A stretch of 64,000 bases of DNA, taken from NCBI RefSeq assembly GCF_001579845.1, contig NZ_CP007440.1, positions 1,240,001-1,304,000 on the forward strand. Direction: 5' to 3'. A program made the translations under genes and the position numbers. Of the stretch, positions 16,007 through 26,326 are shown piece after piece. Origin of the DNA: Rhodoplanes sp. Z2-YC6860. Its GTDB lineage: Bacteria > Pseudomonadota > Alphaproteobacteria > Rhizobiales > Xanthobacteraceae. Position 1 is the stretch's first letter. The number at the start of each line of letters is the position of its first letter. The notes below the pieces were generated by a model. That model saw only the letters and a program-made list of their open reading frames with translations. It had not been told where the DNA came from and made no database searches.

Positions 16007-16030
16007 GGTCATATCCAATGAGATACAACG
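16007..16030. promoter_or_regulatory. Degenerate ModE box upstream of modA
   Basis: GGTCATAT, an 8-base spacer, then ATACAACG. Compared with the E. coli ModE half-sites CGTTATAT and ATATAACG, the left arm matches 6 of 8 and the right arm 7 of 8, with the same 8-base spacer. It ends 19 bases before the modA ATG, where repressor binding would block the promoter. Supported by the much better copy at 16941-16966 and by a ModE-type gene at 18387. Confidence 0.5.
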
Positions 16031-16049
16031 GGCTCTCCGGGAGTGTCCG

Positions 16050-16871
16050 ATGCGGATTATCTTCTCTTCTGGCTTGTTCTCTCTGAGCTTGGCGCTTTGC
16101 ATGACGATCACCACGGTCCGGGCGGCCAACGACACTGTGCAGCTTTACGCCGCCGGCAGCCTGCGCAGCGCGCTGACCGATGTCGGCCGCGCGTTCAAGG
16201 CCGCGACCGGCACGACGGTGGAGGCCAAGTTCGGGCCGTCCGGATTGCTCAAGGACGAGATCGCAGGCGGCGCCAAGGCCGAGGTCTTTGCCGCCGCCAA
16301 CATGGAGCATCCGCAGGCGCTCGCCACGGCAAAGCGGGGCGGGCCGGTGGTGCTGTTTGCGCGCAACGAGTTGTGCGCGCTGGTCAGCCCCACGCTCGCG
16401 GTGACGTCCGAGACGCTGCTCGACGCGATGCTCGATCCCAAGGTCAAGCTCGGCACCTCGACGCCGCGCTCGGATCCTTCCGGCGACTACACGTTCGAGA
16501 TGTTCCGCAAAGCCGAAGCGCTCAAGCCCGGCGCGCAGGCCACGCTGGAGAAGAAGGCGCTGCAATTGATGGGCGGTGCATCGAGCGTGACGCCGCCGCC
16601 CGGGCGGCTCGTCTACAGCTGGCATATCGAGGAGGGCCGCGCCGACATGTTCCTCGCGTATTGCACGGCGACCCGCGAGGCGCAGAGGCACAGTCCGGAT
16701 ATGAAGGTCGTGGCGCTGCCCCATGCGCTCGCCGTCGGCGCCGACTACGGGCTGACCGTGATCGAGGGCGCGTCATCCGCGGCCTATCGTTTCGCGATGT
16801 TCATTCTGTCGGTCGAAGGGCAGCGGATTCTCGCGGGCTACGGTTTCGGCGCGCCCGGTCTGCCGCAATAG
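16050..16871 (+). CDS. modA: Molybdate-type ABC transporter substrate-binding protein (ModA family)
   Basis: 273 aa with a Sec signal peptide ending near VRAAND, then LYAAGSLRSALTDVGRAF and FGPSGLLKDEIAGGA. These Ser-containing segments bind the oxyanion in ModA/WtpA proteins. VFAAANMEHPQALA and LGTSTPRSDPSGDYTFEMF follow as in the family. No ModB permease or ModC ATPase is next to it; the only importer nearby is the FecCD-type system at 18884-21708. It is the first plus-strand gene of the molybdenum island, preceded by a likely ModE box. Affinity for molybdate versus tungstate cannot be read from sequence. Confidence 0.85.
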   Translation: MRIIFSSGLFSLSLALCMTITTVRAANDTVQLYAAGSLRSALTDVGRAFKAATGTTVEAKFGPSGLLKDEIAGGAKAEVFAAANMEHPQALATAKRGGPVVLFARNELCALVSPTLAVTSETLLDAMLDPKVKLGTSTPRSDPSGDYTFEMFRKAEALKPGAQATLEKKALQLMGGASSVTPPPGRLVYSWHIEEGRADMFLAYCTATREAQRHSPDMKVVALPHALAVGADYGLTVIEGASSAAYRFAMFILSVEGQRILAGYGFGAPGLPQ

Positions 16872-16940
16872 AGAGGTATCCGGAGCGCGGCCACCATGAC
16901 GCTTTCGGGGCTTGTTTCTCTTCGGAAGAGCGTGTCATAG

Positions 16941-16966
16941 TCGCTATATCTTGTCAGATATAGCGA
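16941..16966. promoter_or_regulatory. ModE box (molybdate-responsive operator), perfect inverted repeat
   Basis: TCGCTATAT and ATATAGCGA form a perfect 9-base inverted repeat around the 8-base spacer CTTGTCAG. This is the half-site sequence and spacing of E. coli ModE operators. It ends 10 bases before the ATG of the DUF2325 gene, overlapping where its promoter or ribosome site should be. A ModE-type DNA-binding protein is encoded 1.4 kb downstream. Confidence 0.8.
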
Positions 16967-16976
16967 GCGTATCGGC

Positions 16977-18308
16977 ATGGGGACCCATTTGCAGCTTTGG
17001 CGCGGCGGCCATTCCGAGGTGCCCCCGAATCTGCGCCTGCCGCAGCCGCCTGCGGACCTTCCCAATCTGCCAGGATTGACTGTGCCGGCACTGACGGCGC
17101 CCGTACCGGTTCCGGCCAGTCCGGCCGCGCTGAAGCCCCATGCGCTCAAGCGCCGGGTGCGGATCTGGGAGATCAACACCAACCTGCATTGTTCGGTGAT
17201 CGGCACCTGCCTGTCGGCCGCCGAATTGCGGCGTGTCCTGGTGAAGCTGAAGATCGCCGGCATCGAGACCGCGGACGAGCACGAGTTGCACATGCTCGGC
17301 GTGCTGCTCGCCAACCGGCCGCAGGAGGGCGGCAAGCTCCTGCAAAAGACGCTCGACCGGCGCCACGAGGTCACGCTCAACCAGTTCGCCAAGGCCAGAG
17401 ACGACGCGGCGATCGGAACGCTGTGGAAGAAGGCCGTCAGCAGCGGTGACATTCCAGGCGCCTATTGGGCGGTGCTCACTCATCCCGACGCCTCCGACAA
17501 GATGGTGCAGAAAGCGTTCGGCGACGTGCACATGCTGTCGCATCTGATGGGCGCGACGAACTGCGCCGATCTGCAGCGCATGCACCAGCTCGAGGACGAG
17601 CTTGCGACGCTGGAAGCCAAGCTCGAGCGGCAACAGCGCCAGCTGCGCGATGGCTTCATCGAACGCGACGGCAAAATCGCGCGGCTGAGCGCGATGCTGG
17701 CCGAGAAGGTCCAAGGCGACGTGGCCCGCCGTCCGGAGGACGAAGCCGCCGAGGCCGCCGCGCTGAAGGACACGATCGCGGACTTGAACGACCGCCTGTC
17801 GCGGGAAACCGCGCGCCGCGAGCGGCTCGAGCAGCGGCTTGCCAATTTTGAAAGCAGCGACGCCGCGCGCCGCCGCGCCGAGACCGAGCGTGATTCGATC
17901 CGCGAGGAGCTGGAGGCGATGGAGCGGCAGGTCGCGGTCCTGTTCGACGGAGACAATCGCGAAGCGGTGCCCCAGGTCGATCTCGGCGGCGCGACCATTC
18001 TCTATGTCGGCGGCCGCGCCAATCAGTTGCCGCGGTTCAAGACGCTGGTGGAGCAGGCCGGCGGCGCGTTCATCCACCATGATGGCGGTGTCGAGGACGC
18101 CGCCGCGCTGCTGCCGGGGTTCGTCGGCCGCGCCGACGTGACGCTGTTTCCCGTCGACTGCATCAGCCACAACGCGATGAACCAGGCCAAGCGCGTTTGC
18201 CAGCAGCTCAACAAGCCGTTCGTGCCGCTGCGGACCTCAAGTCTCGCCTGTCTTCTGTCGGTGCTGCCGTCGCTGTCGCGCGCGGCCGAGGTGCTCGAAG
18301 CCGGCTGA
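16977..18308 (+). CDS. DUF2325-domain protein under a ModE box
   Basis: 443 aa, soluble. A Pro-rich N-terminus (about residues 10-55) leads to a conserved region starting RRVRIWEINTNLHCSVIGTC. A long charged coiled coil follows at about 204-320, then a C-terminal DUF2325 domain (about 338-430, ILYVGGRANQLPRF and PVDCISHNAM). The DUF2325 fold suggests a small nucleotide- or ligand-binding Rossmann-like domain. Its biochemical role is not established. A near-perfect ModE operator touches its start, and the next gene is a ModE-type regulator, tying it to molybdenum homeostasis. The ribosome site is weak, so the mRNA may be nearly leaderless. Confidence 0.85.
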   Translation: MGTHLQLWRGGHSEVPPNLRLPQPPADLPNLPGLTVPALTAPVPVPASPAALKPHALKRRVRIWEINTNLHCSVIGTCLSAAELRRVLVKLKIAGIETADEHELHMLGVLLANRPQEGGKLLQKTLDRRHEVTLNQFAKARDDAAIGTLWKKAVSSGDIPGAYWAVLTHPDASDKMVQKAFGDVHMLSHLMGATNCADLQRMHQLEDELATLEAKLERQQRQLRDGFIERDGKIARLSAMLAEKVQGDVARRPEDEAAEAAALKDTIADLNDRLSRETARRERLEQRLANFESSDAARRRAETERDSIREELEAMERQVAVLFDGDNREAVPQVDLGGATILYVGGRANQLPRFKTLVEQAGGAFIHHDGGVEDAAALLPGFVGRADVTLFPVDCISHNAMNQAKRVCQQLNKPFVPLRTSSLACLLSVLPSLSRAAEVLEAG

Positions 18309-18386
18309 GCCGCAGAGCCGAAAGGCAGCTTTCTGACCCGCGGAATTCCGGTATATCCTGTTGCTTCGGCGCGGGACCGGTCACGT

Positions 18387-18791
18387 ATGGGCGACACCAG
18401 ATTGACATTGCGGGTGGATTTTGGCGGCAACCGCTCGATCGGTCCGGGCAAGGTGAGGCTTCTGGAAGCCGTCGGCCGCACCGGGTCGATCTCCCAGGCC
18501 GGCCGCGAACTCGGCATGTCGTACCGGCGGGCCTGGCTCCTCATCAACGATCTGAATCTCTGCTTCCAGCAACCGGTGGTGTCGGCGCATCCCGGCGGCT
18601 CGCAGGGCGGCGGCGCCGAACTCACGAAGTTCGGGCAGAAGCTGGTCGCCGATTACCGCTCGATCGAGAGCGATGCGTTCTCGGCGACGAAGTCACATCT
18701 GCGCGATCTTGAATCGTCGCTGCGGCCTCCGGACCGTGCCTCGGTCGAAAAGCAGAAAAAGACCTCGATCAAGTCGCGCACGCGCTCCTAA
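18387..18791 (+). CDS. ModE-type winged-helix regulator, DNA-binding domain only
   Basis: 134 aa. Residues 15-110 match the N-terminal LysR-like wHTH of ModE (RLLEAVGRTGSISQAGRELG, then MSYRRAWLLINDLN and GGGAELTKFG). The C-terminal TOBE/Mop molybdate-binding domains of full ModE are absent. The tail is short, charged and Lys-rich. Such single-domain ModE proteins are known in alphaproteobacteria, where molybdate sensing may be indirect. It is 78 bases after the DUF2325 gene and probably binds the boxes at 16007 and 16941. Confidence 0.88.
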   Translation: MGDTRLTLRVDFGGNRSIGPGKVRLLEAVGRTGSISQAGRELGMSYRRAWLLINDLNLCFQQPVVSAHPGGSQGGGAELTKFGQKLVADYRSIESDAFSATKSHLRDLESSLRPPDRASVEKQKKTSIKSRTRS

Positions 18792-18883
18792 GCGGCGCTT
18801 CCTTTTGCCGGGAAAACGCTGTAACCGTCCGCATACAGCGGTCGGCCGCCACGCCGGCCGTGTCTGGCACCCAGGAGACCGCG

Positions 18884-19912
18884 ATGCTGTTCGACCGCCG
18901 TGCGCTGCTCAGCGGAGCGGCAGCAACACTGCTGGCGCCGCGCGTCGCGCGCGCTGCGGCAGTCTCCGACGATGCCGGCCGCACGATTCAGATTCCCGCG
19001 AAGGTCGAACGGGTGTTCACGGCAGGACCGCCCGCCGCGATCCTGCTTTATACCTTTGCGCCGGAGCTCCTGATCGGCTGGCCCAATCCGCGCCGTCCGG
19101 AGGAGTGCGAACTCATGGCGGCGGACGCCTGCTCGAAGCCGCAGGTCGGACGGATCACCGGCCGTGGCAACACCGCCAATCTCGAGGTGGTGCTGCAACT
19201 CAAGCCGGATCTCATTCTCGACGTCGGCTATATCTCGGACACCTACATATCGCTTGCAAACCGCGTCCAAGAGCAGACCGGCATTCCCTACGCGCTGCTC
19301 GACGGCAAGTTCGACGCGATGGTTTCGACCTATCGCAAACTCGGCGCGCTGACCGGGCGGCCGGATCAGGCCGAAGGCTTTGCTCGCTATGCCGAGCAGA
19401 CCATGACGACGATCAAGCAGCGTATCGCCAAGATCCCTGAGAGCGAGCGTCCGCGGGTCTATTACGGCCGCGGCCCCCGAGGGCTCGAAACCGGGCTCGG
19501 CGGCTCGATCAACATGGAAACCATCGAGTTTCTCGGCGCGCACAACGTCGCCGCCGAGCGCAAGGGCGGGATCGTCAACGTTTCGGTCGAGCAGGTGCTC
19601 GCCTGGAATCCGGACGTCATCATCACCATCGACGGCGGTTTTGCCGCGAGCGTGCGCAACGATCCGTTGTGGGCGCCGATCAAGGCGGTGCAGAGCGGCC
19701 GCGTACACCTGTCGCCGCATCTGCCGTTCGGCTGGGTCGATTTCCCGCCGTCGGTCAACCGGCTGATCGGGTTGTGGTGGCTGGCCAAGGTGCTCTACCC
19801 GGAGCAATTCCCCGAGGACCTCAAGCCGCTGACGCGTGATTTCTATACGCAGTTCTATCACAAGACGCTGACCGATGCGCAGATCGAGAGTGTTCTGTCA
19901 GGCCGCGGCTGA
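18884..19912 (+). CDS. ABC transporter substrate-binding protein, BtuF/FepB/MolA type
   Basis: 342 aa. The ATG at 18884 has AGGAG eight bases upstream and gives MLFDRRALLSGAAATLLAPR, a Tat-like signal. An earlier in-frame ATG lies at 18860. The mature protein has the TroA-like two-lobe layout with a long linking helix (DDAGRTIQIPAKVERVF, LKPDLILDVGYISD). It is the binding protein of the FecCD-type importer that follows. These importers usually carry siderophores, haem or B12. Haemophilus MolA belongs to the same group and binds molybdate/tungstate, which the surrounding Mo genes make attractive here. The substrate is an inference. Confidence 0.85.
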   Translation: MLFDRRALLSGAAATLLAPRVARAAAVSDDAGRTIQIPAKVERVFTAGPPAAILLYTFAPELLIGWPNPRRPEECELMAADACSKPQVGRITGRGNTANLEVVLQLKPDLILDVGYISDTYISLANRVQEQTGIPYALLDGKFDAMVSTYRKLGALTGRPDQAEGFARYAEQTMTTIKQRIAKIPESERPRVYYGRGPRGLETGLGGSINMETIEFLGAHNVAAERKGGIVNVSVEQVLAWNPDVIITIDGGFAASVRNDPLWAPIKAVQSGRVHLSPHLPFGWVDFPPSVNRLIGLWWLAKVLYPEQFPEDLKPLTRDFYTQFYHKTLTDAQIESVLSGRG

Positions 19913-19924
19913 TACTTTGCGGAC

Positions 19925-20938
19925 ATGACTCGCTCCGCCGCGCCCGGCCTGCTGATCGCCTGCGCGATCCTCATTGTCGGCCTCCTCGTCGCTTTCACGG
20001 TCGGCCGTTATCCGATCGGGCTCGCCGATCTCATGAGCGTTGTCGCTGGCAAGCTCACCGGCCGCGAGGCCGACGTGCCGGCGGCCGTGCAGAACGTCAT
20101 CTGGCAGGTGCGAGGCCCGCGCATCCTCTCCGCTGCGCTGGTCGGTGGGGCGCTGGCGGTTGCAGGCACCGCCTTCCAGGGTCTGTTCCGCAATCCACTG
20201 GTGTCGCCGGATATTCTTGGCGCGTCGTCGGGCGCTGCGCTTGGCGCGGTGCTCGGTATTTTCTTCTCGCTCGGCGTATTCGCAATTCAGGCTTTGGCTT
20301 TCGCCGGCGGGCTGATCGCGGTCGCGGCGGTGTACATGATCGGCACCGCGGTGCGGGCACGCGATCCGATCCTGGTGCTGGTGCTAACCGGCGTGGTGGT
20401 CGGCGCGCTGCTCGGCGCGGGCGTCGGCCTCGTGAAGTATCTCGCCGATCCGTACAACCAGCTTCCGGCCATGACGTTCTGGCTGCTGGGCAGTCTCTCC
20501 TCGGTCGCCGTTCCCGATCTCATTCCACTGTTCGGTCCGGTCGCGATCGGCACCGCGGTGCTGCTGGCGCTGCGCTGGCGCATGAACGTGATGTCGCTGC
20601 CCGAGGAGGAGGCCCGCGCGCTCGGCGTGCCGACCGGGCCGTTGCGCATCGCCATTGTCGCCGCAGCAACGCTCGTTACCTCGGCAAGCGTTGCGACCGC
20701 CGGCGTGATCGGCTGGGTCGGTCTCGTGGTGCCGCATCTCGCCCGCACACTCGTGGGACCGGACTTCGCGCGGCTCATTCCGGCGGCAGCCTTGCTCGGC
20801 GGCGGATTTCTCCTGGTGATCGACACGCTCGCCCGCACCATGGCTCCGATCGAGATTCCGCTTGGCATTCTCACCGCGGTGGTCGGCACGCCGTTCTTCA
20901 TCTGGCTGCTCACCAGCGTCTCCAAAACCTGGTCGTGA
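19925..20938 (+). CDS. FecCD-family ABC transporter permease
   Basis: 337 aa with about ten membrane segments typical of type II importers (BtuC/FecC/MolB). Motifs include RGPRILSAALVGGALAVAG, FRNPLVSPDILGASSGAALG and the C-terminal VPHLARTLVGPDF, the cytoplasmic coupling region. The gene starts 12 bases after the binding protein and ends overlapping or abutting the ATPase start (GTGACGATG), so all three form one operon. It differs from the ModB-type permease expected for ModA. Confidence 0.93.
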   Translation: MTRSAAPGLLIACAILIVGLLVAFTVGRYPIGLADLMSVVAGKLTGREADVPAAVQNVIWQVRGPRILSAALVGGALAVAGTAFQGLFRNPLVSPDILGASSGAALGAVLGIFFSLGVFAIQALAFAGGLIAVAAVYMIGTAVRARDPILVLVLTGVVVGALLGAGVGLVKYLADPYNQLPAMTFWLLGSLSSVAVPDLIPLFGPVAIGTAVLLALRWRMNVMSLPEEEARALGVPTGPLRIAIVAAATLVTSASVATAGVIGWVGLVVPHLARTLVGPDFARLIPAAALLGGGFLLVIDTLARTMAPIEIPLGILTAVVGTPFFIWLLTSVSKTWS

Positions 20939-20940
20939 CG

Positions 20941-21708
20941 ATGAAATTGTCCGGGCACGATCTCACCATCGGCTACAGCGAACGGGTGGTCGGCCGCAAT
21001 CTCGACGTCGCGCTTGCGACCGGCGAGGTGCTGGCGCTGCTCGGGCCGAATGGCGGCGGCAAGACCACGCTGTTGAAGACGTTGCTGGGCCTGCTGGCGC
21101 CGCACAGCGGCGAAGTTCGGCTCGGCGACAAGCCGCTCGCGGGCTATGCCAGCCGCGATCGTGCACGGCTGATCGCTTACGTTCCGCAAACGCACGCCGC
21201 GACCTTCGCCTTCACGGTCGAGGCCGTGGTGCTGATGGGCCGCACCGCCCACGGCAACTTGTTCAGCCGGCCGAGCGCCGCCGATCGCGCCGTCGCCGCC
21301 CGCGTGCTCGAACGCTTCGGCATCGCGCATCTGGCTGCGCGGCCCTACACCGAGATTTCCGGCGGCGAGCGGCAGCTTGCGCTGTTGGCACGTGCGCTCG
21401 CGCAGGAACCGCAGTTCATCGTGCTCGACGAGCCGACCGCAAGCCTCGACTTCGGCAATCAGGGCAAGGTGATGCGCGAGATCCGCGCCTTGGCGGCCTC
21501 CGGCCTCGGCGTTCTTTTCACCACCCACGATCCGAACCACGCGATGCGCGCGGCCGATCGCGCCTACCTGCTGAAGCAGGGCACCCGCCTGGCGGAAGGC
21601 GTGACTGTTTCGGTGCTCAACCGGCTGCAATTGGAAGCGCTCTACGGCGCGCCGGTCGAGGTCCTGACCGACACCGGGTCCGGGGCCAGCGCCTTTCTGC
21701 CGGGCTAG
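20941..21708 (+). CDS. ABC transporter ATP-binding protein (FecE/BtuD/MolC type)
   Basis: About 255 aa. Walker A is GPNGGGKTT, the Q-loop region is AYVPQTHAATFAF, the signature is ISGGERQLALLARAL, Walker B is FIVLDEP, and the switch His is in FTTHDPNHAM. A GTG two codons upstream (20935) is an alternative start overlapping the permease stop. It powers the importer formed with 18884-20938. No C-terminal TOBE domain is present, unlike ModC, in line with the FecE/MolC type. Confidence 0.94.
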   Translation: MKLSGHDLTIGYSERVVGRNLDVALATGEVLALLGPNGGGKTTLLKTLLGLLAPHSGEVRLGDKPLAGYASRDRARLIAYVPQTHAATFAFTVEAVVLMGRTAHGNLFSRPSAADRAVAARVLERFGIAHLAARPYTEISGGERQLALLARALAQEPQFIVLDEPTASLDFGNQGKVMREIRALAASGLGVLFTTHDPNHAMRAADRAYLLKQGTRLAEGVTVSVLNRLQLEALYGAPVEVLTDTGSGASAFLPG

Positions 21709-22063: not shown

Positions 22064-22753
22064 ATGACAAAAATCCGGGTGATGAGTGCAGGCGCGGTCG
22101 AAGGTCCGGTGGCGGAGCTTGCGCCGAAATTCACGCAAGCCAAAGGCATCGAGGTCGATCTGGCCTTCAACACCGTCGGCGCGCTGAAGCAGCGTTTCAC
22201 CGGCGGCGAGAAGGCCGACGCGATCATCCTGTCGTTTCCGGCCATCGAGGCACTGGAGGCCGAAGGCCGCATTGCACCAGGAAGCCGCACCGATCTCGGC
22301 CTTGCGACCTGTGGCGTCGCGGTGCGTGACGGCATGATGATGCCGAACATCGCGACGCTCGACGGCTTCAAGCGGATGCTGAACTTTGCCGTATCGATCG
22401 CCGCCAACGATCCGGCCCATGGCGGCTCGTCCGGCATCTACCTCGCCGATCTGTTGAAGCGGATGGGTCTTTACGAGCAGATCGCGCCAAAGATGAAGCT
22501 CTACAAGACCGGCCGCGAATGCGCGCTGGCGCTGGTGCGCGGCGAGGCCGAGATCGGCATCACCTTCACCAGCGAGTTCATCGCGGTGCCGGGCACCCGG
22601 GTGGTGGGCGTGCTGCCGGGTGAAATCGCCTATGTGAACGGCTATGCGGGGGCCATCGCCAAAGACGGCGCGACCGAGCCGGCGCGGGCTTTCCTCAAGT
22701 TCCTGACCGAGCCGGAGTCGAAGGCGTGCTTCGCGCGCTTCGGCCTCGGCTAA
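22064..22753 (+). CDS. ModA-like solute-binding protein without signal peptide
   Basis: 229 aa. The ModA fold signature is clear (IRVMSAGAVEGPVAELAPKF, FTGGEKADAIILSFPAIEAL, GGSSGIYLADLLKRMG, EAEIGITFTSEF). The protein starts directly with MTKIRVMSAG and has no hydrophobic signal, so it should remain in the cytoplasm. It could be an intracellular molybdate or other oxyanion binder or a co-regulator rather than a transporter part. It lies 22 bases after the small secreted protein and 66 bases before fdhD. An upstream signal-containing start is not available, because an in-frame extension runs into the preceding gene. Confidence 0.8.
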   Translation: MTKIRVMSAGAVEGPVAELAPKFTQAKGIEVDLAFNTVGALKQRFTGGEKADAIILSFPAIEALEAEGRIAPGSRTDLGLATCGVAVRDGMMMPNIATLDGFKRMLNFAVSIAANDPAHGGSSGIYLADLLKRMGLYEQIAPKMKLYKTGRECALALVRGEAEIGITFTSEFIAVPGTRVVGVLPGEIAYVNGYAGAIAKDGATEPARAFLKFLTEPESKACFARFGLG

Positions 22754-22818: not shown

Positions 22819-23700
22819 ATGCGCAAGCCGAAGGACTATCTGATCAAGCCGGACCCGCTCGACCCGCGGCTGACCGAGCGCGTCACCGGCGTCGATCAGA
22901 CCGGCGCCAGGATCGAAACCGCGGTGACGGTCGAGCGCGCGCTGACGATCTTCCTCAATTCGCAGGAGATCGTCACCGCGATGACGATCGGCGACTACCC
23001 GGAATATCTCGCAATCGGCTACCTGCTCAATCAGAACATGCTGCGGCCGGACGACACCATCACGGCCGTCGACTACGACGAAGACTTGGCGGTGGTCGTG
23101 GTGCGCACCAAGCGCAAGACCAATTACGAGAAGAAGCTGAAGAAGAAGGTGCAGACCTCGGGCTGCGCCCAGGGCACCGTGTTCGGTGATCTCATGGAGG
23201 CGCTCGAAGACATCAAGCTGCCGGATGCAGAGCTCCGCACCTCTTGGCTTTATGCGCTGACCAACAAGATCAACACCACGCCGTCGCTCTATCTCGAAGC
23301 CGGTGCGATTCACGGCTGCGTGCTCGCGGTGGGAGAGCAGCCGCTGGTCTACATGGAGGACGTCGGCCGCCACAACGCCGTCGACAAGATCGCTGGCTGG
23401 ATGTTCAAGCACCGCGTACGGCCCGACGACAAGATTTTCTACACCACCGGCCGGCTCACCTCGGAGATGGTGATCAAGACGGTGCGCATGGGCATCCCGA
23501 TCCTGGTGTCGCGTTCGGGCTTCACGGCCTGGGGTGTCGAGCTCGCCCGCAAGGCCAACCTCACGCTGGTCGGCCGTGCTCGCGGCAAGCGCTTCATGGC
23601 GCTCGCCGGCGAAAGCCGCATCGTGTTCGATCAGGACTTGGCCTACGTCGAGGAGGAAAGCTCCAAGCACCGGCGGAAAGCCGCGGCGCATGACGACTGA
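22819..23700 (+). CDS. fdhD: FdhD-family formate dehydrogenase accessory protein
   Basis: 293 aa. FdhD hands sulfur from the cysteine desulfurase to the molybdenum cofactor of formate dehydrogenase. Family blocks are [45 protein letters not shown] and [13 protein letters not shown]. The Cys loop is divergent: [11 protein letters not shown] keeps one Cys where E. coli has CxxC. The upstream frame open from 22726 overlaps the previous gene and is unlikely. The last 11 bases overlap mobA, so the two are translationally coupled. Confidence 0.93.
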
Positions 23701-24319
23701 CGGTGGGACGCTGGGGCTGGTCCTCGCCGGCGGACTGGCACGGCGGATGGGTGGCGGCGACAAGCCGCGCACCATGATCGGCGGCGAGACCATTCTGTCG
23801 CGCGTCATCGAGCGGTTCGCGCCGCAATGCACGCGGCTCATTCTCAACGCCAATGGCGATCCGGCGCGTTTTGCCGACACCCGACTGCCGGTGATCCCCG
23901 ACGACGTGCCGGATTTCGCGGGACCTTTGGCCGGCGTGCTGGCCGGGCTCGACTGGGCGGCGGCGCATGCGCCGGGCGTCGAATACGTTGCGAGCGTGCC
24001 GGGCGATTGCCCCTTCCTGCCGCGCGATCTCGTGACACGGCTGCATCAGGCGCGACTCGCTGAGAACAAACAGCTCGCCTGTGCGCGTTCCGGCGAGTGG
24101 CGGCACCCGGTGGTGGCGCTATGGACCGTTTCCCTGCGCGATGACCTGCGCCAGGCGTTGGTCCGAGAGGGTTTGCGCAAGATCGAGATCTGGACCGCAC
24201 GTCACGGCATCGCGCTGGCGGACTGGCCGCTTGAGCCGGTCGATCCGTTCTTCAACGTCAACACGCCCGAGGATGCCGCGGCCGCGGAACGCCTGGCGGC
24301 GCAATATCCAAACGCGTAA
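23690..24319 (+). CDS. mobA: Molybdenum cofactor guanylyltransferase
   Basis: 209 aa. Attaches GMP to Mo-molybdopterin to give the MGD cofactor used by DMSO-reductase-family enzymes such as formate dehydrogenase. The N-terminal nucleotide-binding signature is [17 protein letters not shown], with [20 protein letters not shown] and [13 protein letters not shown] following, and the C-terminus is NVNTPEDAA. The start ATG (23690) lies within the end of fdhD. Its presence says the target enzyme of this island uses bis-MGD rather than the MCD cofactor of xanthine-dehydrogenase-type enzymes. Confidence 0.95.
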
Positions 24320-24325
24320 GCGAAC

Positions 24326-25600
24326 TCAGCCCATCAGCGTCGCGTAAGACAGAAAGCCAACCGTCGCGCCGGGCTCGAGCGTCGTCGTGTCTTCGGCAAG
24401 CTCGGCAAGGCCGTCGGTCTCCGTGAGCGACGTGATGACGCCCGCGCCTTCCTGCGGGTGCTTCACCGCTTCGATCGTGCCGTCTGTGCCAGGCCGCAAC
24501 GCCACGCGGACATACTCGCGGCGGCCGCTCTTCTTCCTGTAGCGAAACGCGAGCCGCACCGGCAACGCGGTGAGCGGCTCGGCATTGGCTCCGGCGAGCC
24601 GCAGAAACAGCGGCCGCACCACGCGCACGAACGTGACGAAGGCCGCGACCGGATTGCCCGGCAAGCCAAGGAAGGCCGCGGCCGTGCCTGGATTTCCTGC
24701 GGGTACGACGCCCATCGCCACCGGCCGGCCCGGCTTGATCGCGACGCGCCAGAACACGAGCTTGCCGATTTTCTCGACGGCGTCGCGCACGTGATCGGCT
24801 TCGCCGGTCGAGACGCCGCCTGAGGTCAGCACCAGATCGTGATCGCGTGCGGCCTTGGCGATGCCCGCTTCCAACGCTGCCGGGTCGTCCTTGAGGATGC
24901 CGAGATCGGTCACCTCGGCGCCCAGCCGATCCAGCATGCCGTCCAGGAGAAAGCGGTTGGCGTCGTACAAGGCCGCGGCAGGCCGTGGCTTGCCGGGTTC
25001 GACGATCTCGTCGCCGGTCGAGAACAACGCGACGCGAACCCGCCGACGCACCTTGAGTTCGGTCAGTCCAACGGCTGCGGCGAGGGCCACATCTTGCACC
25101 GCGAGCCGCCGTCCTGCCGGCAGCAGCAGCGAGCCTTTTTTCACATCCTCGCCCGCGAGCCTGCGATTGGCGCCAGGCTTCAGCCCGGCCGGTACGATGA
25201 CGGCGTCGTCCTCGGTGCGCACATCCTCCTGCATGAACACCGTGTCGGCATCGGCCGGCATCGGCGCGCCGGTGAAGATGCGAGTCGCCTGGCCTGTGCC
25301 AAGCGACGCGTCCGCGGCGCGGCCTGCAGTCAGCCGCCCGGTGATCGATAGCTTCGTCTCGCCATTCGGATCGAGATCGCGATGCCGCACCGCATAGCCA
25401 TCGACCGCAGAATTGTCGAACGGCGGCAGATCGAGCGGCGCGATCACGTTATCGGCGAGCACGCGGCCGCGCGCCGCTGCGAGCTTCACGGTCTCGGTTT
25501 CGCTCACCGGCTGCACGCGCTCGGCGATCAGCCGCTCCATCTCTGCGATCGGCATCAACGGGCCGGAAAACGCAAAGCAGTCGTCGCTGAGTTGCGCCAT
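24326..25600 (-). CDS. moeA: Molybdopterin molybdenumtransferase MoeA
   Basis: 424 aa. Inserts molybdate into adenylated molybdopterin. Conserved segments are LPPFDNSAVDGYAVR, RIFTGAPMPADAD, FSTGDEIVEPG, LTSGGVSTGEAD and FLGLPGNPVAAFVTF. The ATG at 25600 forms TGATG with the mobB stop and has GAGG six bases upstream; a GTG at 25603 is the alternative. It is convergent with mobA, with only six bases between the stops. This is the orthodox MoeA of the window. Two further MoeA-like genes are at 27751-30842. Confidence 0.95.
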   Translation of the reverse strand: MAQLSDDCFAFSGPLMPIAEMERLIAERVQPVSETETVKLAAARGRVLADNVIAPLDLPPFDNSAVDGYAVRHRDLDPNGETKLSITGRLTAGRAADASLGTGQATRIFTGAPMPADADTVFMQEDVRTEDDAVIVPAGLKPGANRRLAGEDVKKGSLLLPAGRRLAVQDVALAAAVGLTELKVRRRVRVALFSTGDEIVEPGKPRPAAALYDANRFLLDGMLDRLGAEVTDLGILKDDPAALEAGIAKAARDHDLVLTSGGVSTGEADHVRDAVEKIGKLVFWRVAIKPGRPVAMGVVPAGNPGTAAAFLGLPGNPVAAFVTFVRVVRPLFLRLAGANAEPLTALPVRLAFRYRKKSGRREYVRVALRPGTDGTIEAVKHPQEGAGVITSLTETDGLAELAEDTTTLEPGATVGFLSYATLMG

Positions 25601-26127
25601 CACGCACCTCGCATGGCGGCCACCGCACTCTGCAGGGGCGCAGCGTGCCGCAGCAGCATATCGGCAATCGTCTCGATGTCGTCGAGATCGATCACCGGCA
25701 CATTGGCCTGCGGCAATGGCGTATCCGAGGCGATGGCGACGATATGCGGATCATCCGGATGGATGAGCGGCTTGCCGTTGGCCGCGCGGTGAATCTCAAG
25801 CTTGGGAAATGCGTCGCGTTTGAAGCCTTCGACCAGCACCAGATCGACCGATGCAAACTTGCCCAAAAGATCGGCGAGGTCCCATTCCGGTTCGTCACGC
25901 AACTCGTGCAGCACCGCAAAGCGCTTCGCCGAGCTGATCACAACTTCGGTTGCGCCCGCGCTGCGGTGCATGAACGAATCCTTGCCCGGCTGATCGAGGT
26001 CGAACCCGTGATGCGCGTGCTTCAGCGTCGACACGCGCTGACCGCGCGCGATCAGGCGCGGTAACACCTTGGTGATCAGCGTGGTCTTGCCCGAGCCGCT
26101 CCAGCCGGCGAGTCCGATGATGCGCAT
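25600..26127 (-). CDS. mobB: Molybdopterin-guanine dinucleotide biosynthesis adapter MobB
   Basis: 175 aa GTP-binding protein that assists MobA. It starts MRIIGLAGWSGSGKTTLITK with an intact P-loop and has STLKHAHHGFD and VLVEGFKRDAFPKLEI. I chose the ATG at 26127, preceded by AAAGGTCA; another ATG four codons upstream (26139) is possible. The much longer open frame to 26295 lacks coding character. It is transcribed together with moeA, divergent from the small gene at 26327. Confidence 0.94.
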   Translation of the reverse strand: MRIIGLAGWSGSGKTTLITKVLPRLIARGQRVSTLKHAHHGFDLDQPGKDSFMHRSAGATEVVISSAKRFAVLHELRDEPEWDLADLLGKFASVDLVLVEGFKRDAFPKLEIHRAANGKPLIHPDDPHIVAIASDTPLPQANVPVIDLDDIETIADMLLRHAAPLQSAVAAMRGA

Positions 26128-26326
26128 TGACCTTTGCATGCAGCCCTTATAGCAAAACGCCGATATTGGAGCGCCCTTGACGTGGCTGCCGGGCCGTTCG
26201 GGCGCTCCTTGCGGCATTCCAACCACGGGATGCTGTTTTCGTTCTTGCCGCTTTTGAATGCTGTGGCCGCTGGCCCGCAGTGTGACATTGCGCACTCACC
26301 GCTTCCTGGGTGGGTTTGCTATTGGA

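Follow-up and report, generated by a model that had tools for sequence, protein, structure and literature searches.

A conserved ModE-type box ahead of one clade of long DUF2325 genes suggests a role in molybdenum homeostasis

A 64,000-nucleotide stretch of the Rhodoplanes sp. Z2-YC6860 genome (contig NZ_CP007440.1, positions 1,240,001 to 1,304,000; this whole stretch is hereafter the window) carries a gene for a long DUF2325 protein of 443 amino acids (aa) (16977-18308, plus strand; PF10087, 71.9 bits). Upstream of it lies a gene for a ModA-type molybdate-binding protein (16050-16871, plus strand; NCBIfam NF002917, 321.3 bits against a cut-off of 264; PF13531, 149.3 bits). Downstream lies a gene for a 134-aa protein that consists of a ModE DNA-binding domain only (18387-18791, plus strand; TIGR00637, 90.0 bits, under the curated cut-off of 98.5; PF00126, 29.2 bits). 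To our knowledge, DUF2325 has no accepted function. An inverted repeat with zero mismatches, TCGCTATAT-N8-ATATAGCGA, occupies positions 16941-16966 (no strand assigned) and ends 10 bases upstream of the DUF2325 start codon, the ATG at 16977. A preliminary description of the locus, made from the sequence alone, had reported a perfect 9-base inverted repeat at this distance and a ModE-type gene at 18387; both are present, the latter with its family score below the curated threshold.

Within the window, the repeat is the sole site at up to three mismatches to the exact pattern (0 expected). A scan of the 8,193,889 bases of the genome found the 8+8 core at zero mismatches at this single site, with three further sites at two mismatches, two of which resemble ModE boxes while one is a plain AT repeat. 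Up to three mismatches were reached at 15 sites genome-wide, compared with 5 for the pattern read backwards. The available text of PMC545781 gives the Escherichia coli ModE consensus as ATCGNTATATA-N6-TATATANCGAT, and its core and spacing are likewise quoted in the portion of PMC2700814 that was consulted. By pattern scan, the repeat is a predicted, perfect ModE-type operator, and an upstream site of this kind is kept in 69 of 80 relatives.

These relatives were obtained by aligning the window protein with five family homologues and taking the best 80 of 340 relatives in named genomes; they are alpha- and betaproteobacterial, comprising 33 Burkholderia-group loci and 47 others. Five of six additional loci (L003-L008) duplicate members of this set and provide no extra evidence. 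For each locus, the best site within 450 bp ahead of the match start was scored by its mismatches to CGYTATATN8ATATARCG. The box was present at up to three mismatches in the 69 loci (31/33 in the Burkholderia group and 38/47 elsewhere) and at up to two in 64/80, the best sites having zero, one, two and three mismatches in 8, 30, 26 and 5 loci, respectively, and four to seven in the remaining 11. When these 80 stretches were dinucleotide-shuffled, none of the 1600 resulting sequences reached three mismatches or fewer, nor did any of 80 intragenic control stretches. The preliminary description had named conservation before DUF2325 orthologues as a test that could refute it, and the box came through this test. 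With spacers of 2-15 bases and one mismatch per half-site allowed, the spacer was 8 in 46 of 50 half-site pairs. The distance from the box to the first in-frame start has a median of 52 bases (n=69), compared with 10 in the window; the box is thus close ahead of the start, in a position as for a repressor site. Decayed DUF2325 remnants were also seen in three genomes (L133 in G208, L134 in G434 and L132 in G448). A perfect ModE-type box remains in L134 and a three-mismatch box in L133, and both adjoin a frame that resembles, by eye, the aldehyde dehydrogenase discussed below.

Within the long DUF2325 family, the box is characteristic of a single clade. In a tree of 93 rows, a single 61-row clade (Shimodaira-Hasegawa-like approximate likelihood-ratio support, 99) contains all 50 box-bearing rows, so that the box occurs in 50/61 rows within the clade and in 0/32 outside it; none of 500 label shuffles was as clustered. 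The tree was built quickly; 27 of its forks are open, five terminal branches are long and its deeper order is unsure. It left out 24 closely related Burkholderia-group rows (including the box-less L075), L013, whose frame was not called, and the repeats L172, L112, L118 and L119. When the order was searched with a paralogue, 48 of 397 genomes had a match, and the top 30 loci were retrieved. Four of these had a box at up to one mismatch (zero in L172, which is the window's own locus, and in L169; one in L165 and L179), and the best site of the other 26 had at least five. The window's genome itself has one DUF2325 match only. The tie between DUF2325 and molybdenum control that had been proposed for the domain in general therefore stands for one clade of long proteins and fails for DUF2325 at large.

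The genes that accompany this molybdenum branch are in keeping with the box. NifQ and molbindin (Mop) are molybdenum-handling proteins, and at least one of ModE, NifQ, molbindin and ModA was found in the fetched flanks of 63/80 loci (33/33 in the Burkholderia group and 30/47 elsewhere). ModE was found in 47/80 (44 within 1 kb), ModA1-type proteins in 30, NifQ in 29 and aldehyde dehydrogenase in 20. ModE accompanies 33/33 Burkholderia-group loci and 14/47 of the others; gene company is uneven between the groups, and relatedness therefore inflates the totals. The molbindin query matched in 24/80 loci, 12 of which carry molbindin proper (at least 60% identity). The remaining matches may represent the TOBE domain of ModC or of ModE; in L037 and L090 the match does fall inside a ModE frame. 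The figure of 63/80 is unchanged when only the 12 molbindins proper are counted. At one locus, a DUF2325 gene and a molbindin gene diverge, and the region of their starts holds a single box (L148:6667-6690, genome G526). NifQ-like genes were also seen beside DUF2325 and ModE in genomes without nifH above the family cut-off (L047, L054, L062, L065 and L069), which suggests that such proteins take part in molybdenum handling unconnected with nitrogenase. A nitrogenase link was considered as the general role of the DUF2325 protein and rejected, as nifH above the family cut-off was found in 5 of 28 tested gene-carrying genomes and not in that of the window. Co-occurrence with ModE was likewise discarded as evidence: in the family sample, all seven genomes with a full-length DUF2325 protein match ModE (G131, with DUF2325 fragments only, was left out), yet so do 140/149 genomes (E≤0.001, many of the matches weak).

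For comparison, 21 contexts of other branches were assembled, of which 17 are tree rows outside the clade and four (L196-L199) are absent from the tree. Of these four, two are short forms (L197 and L198) and L196 has no clear frame; L181, L182 and L186 also lack a clear frame and correspond to tree rows L151, L152 and L157. L195 was excluded from this set on account of its molybdenum-branch motif and two-mismatch box, and it is, like L194, a molybdenum-branch locus without a core molybdenum gene. None of the 21 contexts contained ModE, NifQ, molbindin or ModA, and none had a box at up to two mismatches anywhere in the fetched stretch. An iron-type set of genes was defined as imelysin, a di-haem oxidoreductase, a binding protein taken for ferric, Fur and an unnamed 181-aa companion; imelysin and the ferric-type binding protein we take to be linked to iron. 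With tblastn queries drawn from L121, L122 and L147, iron-type genes were found in 6/21 contexts, namely these three and L181, L182 and L187, from which no query was drawn. An imelysin-family protein in L145 makes a seventh. The remaining contexts have neither molybdenum nor iron-type genes, so the iron link is partial. The unnamed 181-aa family is a repeated neighbour of iron-branch DUF2325 genes (L121, L122, L181, L182 and L187), and in all five loci there is an imelysin, a di-haem oxidoreductase or a ferric-type binding protein as well.

These contexts bear on the possibility that control by ModE is real and that the protein nonetheless serves in metal starvation or oxidative stress generally, for instance by protecting or repairing metal proteins, and not as a molybdenum handler, the family being wired to whichever metalloregulator is relevant. 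The iron-type genes in 7/21 contexts would agree with this, as would a short DUF2325 protein from Campylobacter, Cj1384, which, according to the accessible text of PMC9426514, is regulated by Fur and PerR and adjoins katA. We nevertheless regard it as unlikely, since ModE, NifQ, molbindin or ModA accompanies 63/80 molybdenum-branch loci and 0/21 other contexts, and the iron-type set was matched in only one of the 80 (L090).

Boxes of the same kind precede other genes at the same loci. At up to two mismatches within 450 bp upstream, they were found before ModA1-type genes in 11/30 cases, Peripla_BP_2 in 5/10, aldehyde dehydrogenase in 7/20, molbindin-like matches in 8/24, NifQ in 4/29 and ModE in 7/47. 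Control stretches inside genes gave 0, 0, 0, 4, 0 and 2, respectively. When sites shared with a divergent DUF2325 gene are set aside, the counts become 9/30, 4/10, 4/20, 8/24, 4/29 and 3/47. It is most improbable, in our view, that the repeat is the operator of some other regulator or a structural element. The sub-threshold family score of the ModE-type protein would leave room for such a reading, but the core and spacing equal those of the E. coli ModE consensus (PMC545781, in the text available), boxes also precede ModA and molybdate-type transporter genes at the same loci, and ModE is the commonest neighbour among the genes sought.

Elsewhere in the window's genome, a ModE-type box (L123:4404-4427; G000:3959403) lies just ahead of where an aldehyde dehydrogenase gene probably starts. 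The enzyme under this box is possibly a molybdenum-free replacement for a molybdoenzyme. In Rhodobacter capsulatus, MopA and MopB control the alternative nitrogenase (PMC6925177, from the part consulted), and by analogy it is plausible that ModE also controls molybdenum-free backups such as this dehydrogenase may be. Another box (L124:4439-4462; G000:4438438) precedes a gene for a 262-aa protein without a Pfam match, followed by a TonB-dependent receptor; these genes perhaps provide a way for molybdenum across the outer membrane.

The 134-aa ModE of the window (18387-18791) had no reported TOBE/Mop domain and is not a full-length ModE. It is the single ModE match in its genome at E≤1e-10 (90.1 bits at G000:1258438, below the TIGR00637 cut-off of 98.5). 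A search of the same genome found neither molbindin nor a TOBE-bearing ModE, the lone TOBE match being one of 28.0 bits in a 459-aa frame elsewhere. The close relatives L011 and L012 do carry molbindin in the cluster. Short ModE frames are common, as 44 of the 48 listed (the window's included) are below 220 aa. How a DNA-binding-only ModE senses molybdenum is a question that the accessible text of PMC545781 raises for Desulfovibrio, and the window's ModE revives it.

One answer would be that the DUF2325 protein is the missing sensor or modulator of a DNA-binding-only ModE, the adjacent genes forming a split regulator. The proximity of ModE (within 1 kb in 44/80 loci) and the shortness of most ModE frames are consistent with this, and the failure to find molbindin or a TOBE-bearing ModE in the window's genome makes it attractive. 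We consider it quite improbable, however: ModE mostly occurs where there is no long DUF2325 protein, being found (E≤1e-10) in 99/385 genomes compared with 5/385 for a full-length long DUF2325 match, a gene repressed at high molybdenum is poorly placed to encode a high-molybdenum co-repressor, and molbindin proper could do the sensing in 12/80 related loci. Still slightly more doubtful is the wider version in which DUF2325 would be the missing molybdenum-sensing or signal-passing partner of DNA-binding-only ModE proteins in a split metal sensor, and the iron-branch paralogues would act likewise beside Fur-type regulators.

The 443-aa protein has its PF10087 match at residues 341-430, well above the gathering cut-off of 33.6 bits. 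The AlphaFold2 model is helical from about residue 60 to 191, with a coiled coil from about 196 to 323 and an alpha/beta Rossmann-like DUF2325 domain at 340-442; residues 1-55 are of low confidence. The whole model has a mean predicted local distance difference test score (pLDDT) of 85.2 and a predicted template modelling score (pTM) of 0.49, so the relative placement of its parts is uncertain. The N-terminal helical domain reached a pLDDT of 94.4 when modelled alone and had no Foldseek match in the PDB at E≤0.001. Identification of the whole model by its fold was also tried and rejected, as no match reached E≤0.001 and the top-ranking ones were alpha/beta folds, response-regulator-like ones among them. 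In a sequence search of solved structures, the best 60 of 65 matches all align to the coiled-coil stretch. Eleven residues are invariant in 52 molybdenum-branch rows (H71, C72, C78, H105, H169, H185, H189, H368, D369, C395 and H398), and C72, C78, H105, H185 and H189 are still kept when two iron-context proteins (L121/L122) are added. The conserved Cys and His residues would fit a bound metal or cofactor.

We propose that the DUF2325 gene belongs to the ModE regulon, is repressed by ModE and encodes a product that helps molybdenum handling under scarcity, and we give this reading as a whole a probability of about 0.6. When molybdate is plentiful, the neighbouring ModE would occupy the repeat immediately ahead of the start codon and keep the gene repressed; when molybdenum is scarce, the gene would be released along with molybdate uptake genes. 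The product would be a soluble protein that captures, holds or passes on scarce molybdenum in the starving cell. It may use the N-terminal helical domain with its invariant Cys and His residues, the coiled coil for self-association and the C-terminal Rossmann-like domain. The wider family would consist of metal-status-controlled proteins, some other members of which adjoin iron-uptake-type genes. The box, its conservation, its clade specificity and the gene company are direct observations on sequence. The ModE core and spacing at the start region, conservation before orthologues and a ModE encoded in the genome, by which we judged membership in the regulon, were all found. Repression of the gene by ModE is strongly suggested. 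We infer that ModE binds the repeat, and likewise the direction of regulation and the biochemical role. For the latter, intracellular molybdenum handling under limitation is our best guess from the gene company and the conserved Cys and His residues.

Several observations weigh against this proposal. Eleven of the 80 relatives have no box at up to three mismatches within 450 bp upstream; among them, L017, L042, L070 and L075 have a box farther upstream that is perhaps another gene's, and in L022 a box coincides with the match start. The pattern read backwards reaches three mismatches or fewer in 35/80 of the same stretches and two or fewer in 11/80. We judged it a poor control because the ATATA cores are retained, and relied on dinucleotide shuffles in its place. 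A sigma-70-type promoter was not recognised. There is no core molybdenum gene in 17/80 loci, some of which are short contigs, and the NifQ neighbours are nearly all from the Burkholderia group (28/29 loci, with one among the others). Boxes before ModE itself are few, 7/47 compared with 2 in the controls, the ModE of the window is without a sensing domain, and a metal site at the conserved Cys and His residues is a guess.

The surrounding genes make this a molybdenum uptake and cofactor region. A weak ModE-type box, GGTCATAT-CCAATGAG-ATACAACG (16007-16030, no strand assigned), precedes the modA ATG at 16050. As the preliminary description had it, this is a weaker box with the same 8-base spacing; it has three mismatches to CGYTATATN8ATATARCG and is the second-best match in the window to a position weight matrix (PWM) built from the boxes of the relatives' loci L011-L090 (19.7 bits, compared with 32.7 for the top match). 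No counterpart was found ahead of modA in L011 or L012, which are the two nearest relatives. A third box, absent from that description, lies at 18817-18840 (no strand assigned; three mismatches; PWM 10.4 bits, third in the window) before genes for a FecCD-type transporter. These encode a Peripla_BP_2 binding protein (18884-19912, plus; PF01497, 68.6 bits; start chosen by eye, GTG 18860 being possible too), a FecCD-type permease (19925-20938, plus; PF01032, 281.7 bits) and an ABC transporter ATPase (20935-21708, plus; PF00005, 104.5 bits); context suggests that the binding protein is specific for molybdate. There follow a second ModA-like binding protein (22064-22753, plus; PF13531, 125.1 bits; TIGR01256, 46.9 bits, under the cut-off of 62.5), FdhD (22819-23700, plus; PF02634, 247.1 bits), MobA (23534-24319, plus; TIGR02665, 205.2 bits; frame taken from the first start, with the MobA domain from about residue 60), MoeA (24326-25603, minus; PF03453, PF00994 and PF03454) and MobB (25600-26295, minus; TIGR00176, 161.1 bits). 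A canonical ModB above the family cut-off sits elsewhere in the genome (G000:7821692-7822318), with no ModE-type box at up to three mismatches in the surrounding 9 kb.

No link between DUF2325 and molybdenum was found in the literature searched, as far as its accessible text goes; most subscription papers, preprints and RegPrecise lie outside it, and an earlier database prediction is possible. DUF2325 is named in four of the papers covered and PF10087 in none. What appears to be new, in a regulon already known, is the target clade with its sharp boundary and the molybdenum/iron split of the family. The conserved ModE operator and the recurrent ModE, NifQ, molbindin and ModA neighbours place one defined clade of alpha- and betaproteobacterial proteins in molybdenum homeostasis. 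Because relatives carry the same molybdenum-regulator site, the DUF2325 gene appears to be switched on when molybdenum is short, and this is a first clue to what the family does. The iron-type neighbours of sister branches suggest that the role is one in metal status generally, and the question of DUF2325 function can now be reduced to a few simple experiments.

Compared with E. coli ModE operators, the window repeat has an identical half-site core, CGNTATAT, and identical 8-base spacing. The equality of half-sites and spacer claimed in the preliminary description thus holds for the core and spacing and not for the flanks of the half-sites, as the repeat has C/G for the innermost A/T pair and a G in place of both the outermost A and the outermost T. 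As with the Mo-boxes of R. capsulatus MopA/MopB, the box is close ahead of the gene; a DUF2325 gene as target was not seen for either system in the accessible text of the ModE literature searched. NifQ and molbindin, neighbours of molybdenum-branch DUF2325 genes in 29/80 and 12/80 loci, offer a proposed comparable role, although no sequence relation to DUF2325 was shown and molybdenum binding by the latter is only putative. Long DUF2325 proteins outside the molybdenum branch (L101, L102, L129-L131, L150-L164 and others) share the architecture of the window protein but have no ModE box and, in part, have iron-type neighbours. Cj1384 has the DUF2325 domain in common with the window protein. At 104 aa, as given in the portion of PMC9426514 consulted, it has no room for the N-terminal domain or the coiled coil, and its context is one of iron and peroxide, not molybdenum. 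Set beside these systems, DUF2325 proteins look like metal-status-controlled proteins with a molybdenum branch, to which the window protein belongs, and an iron-linked branch.

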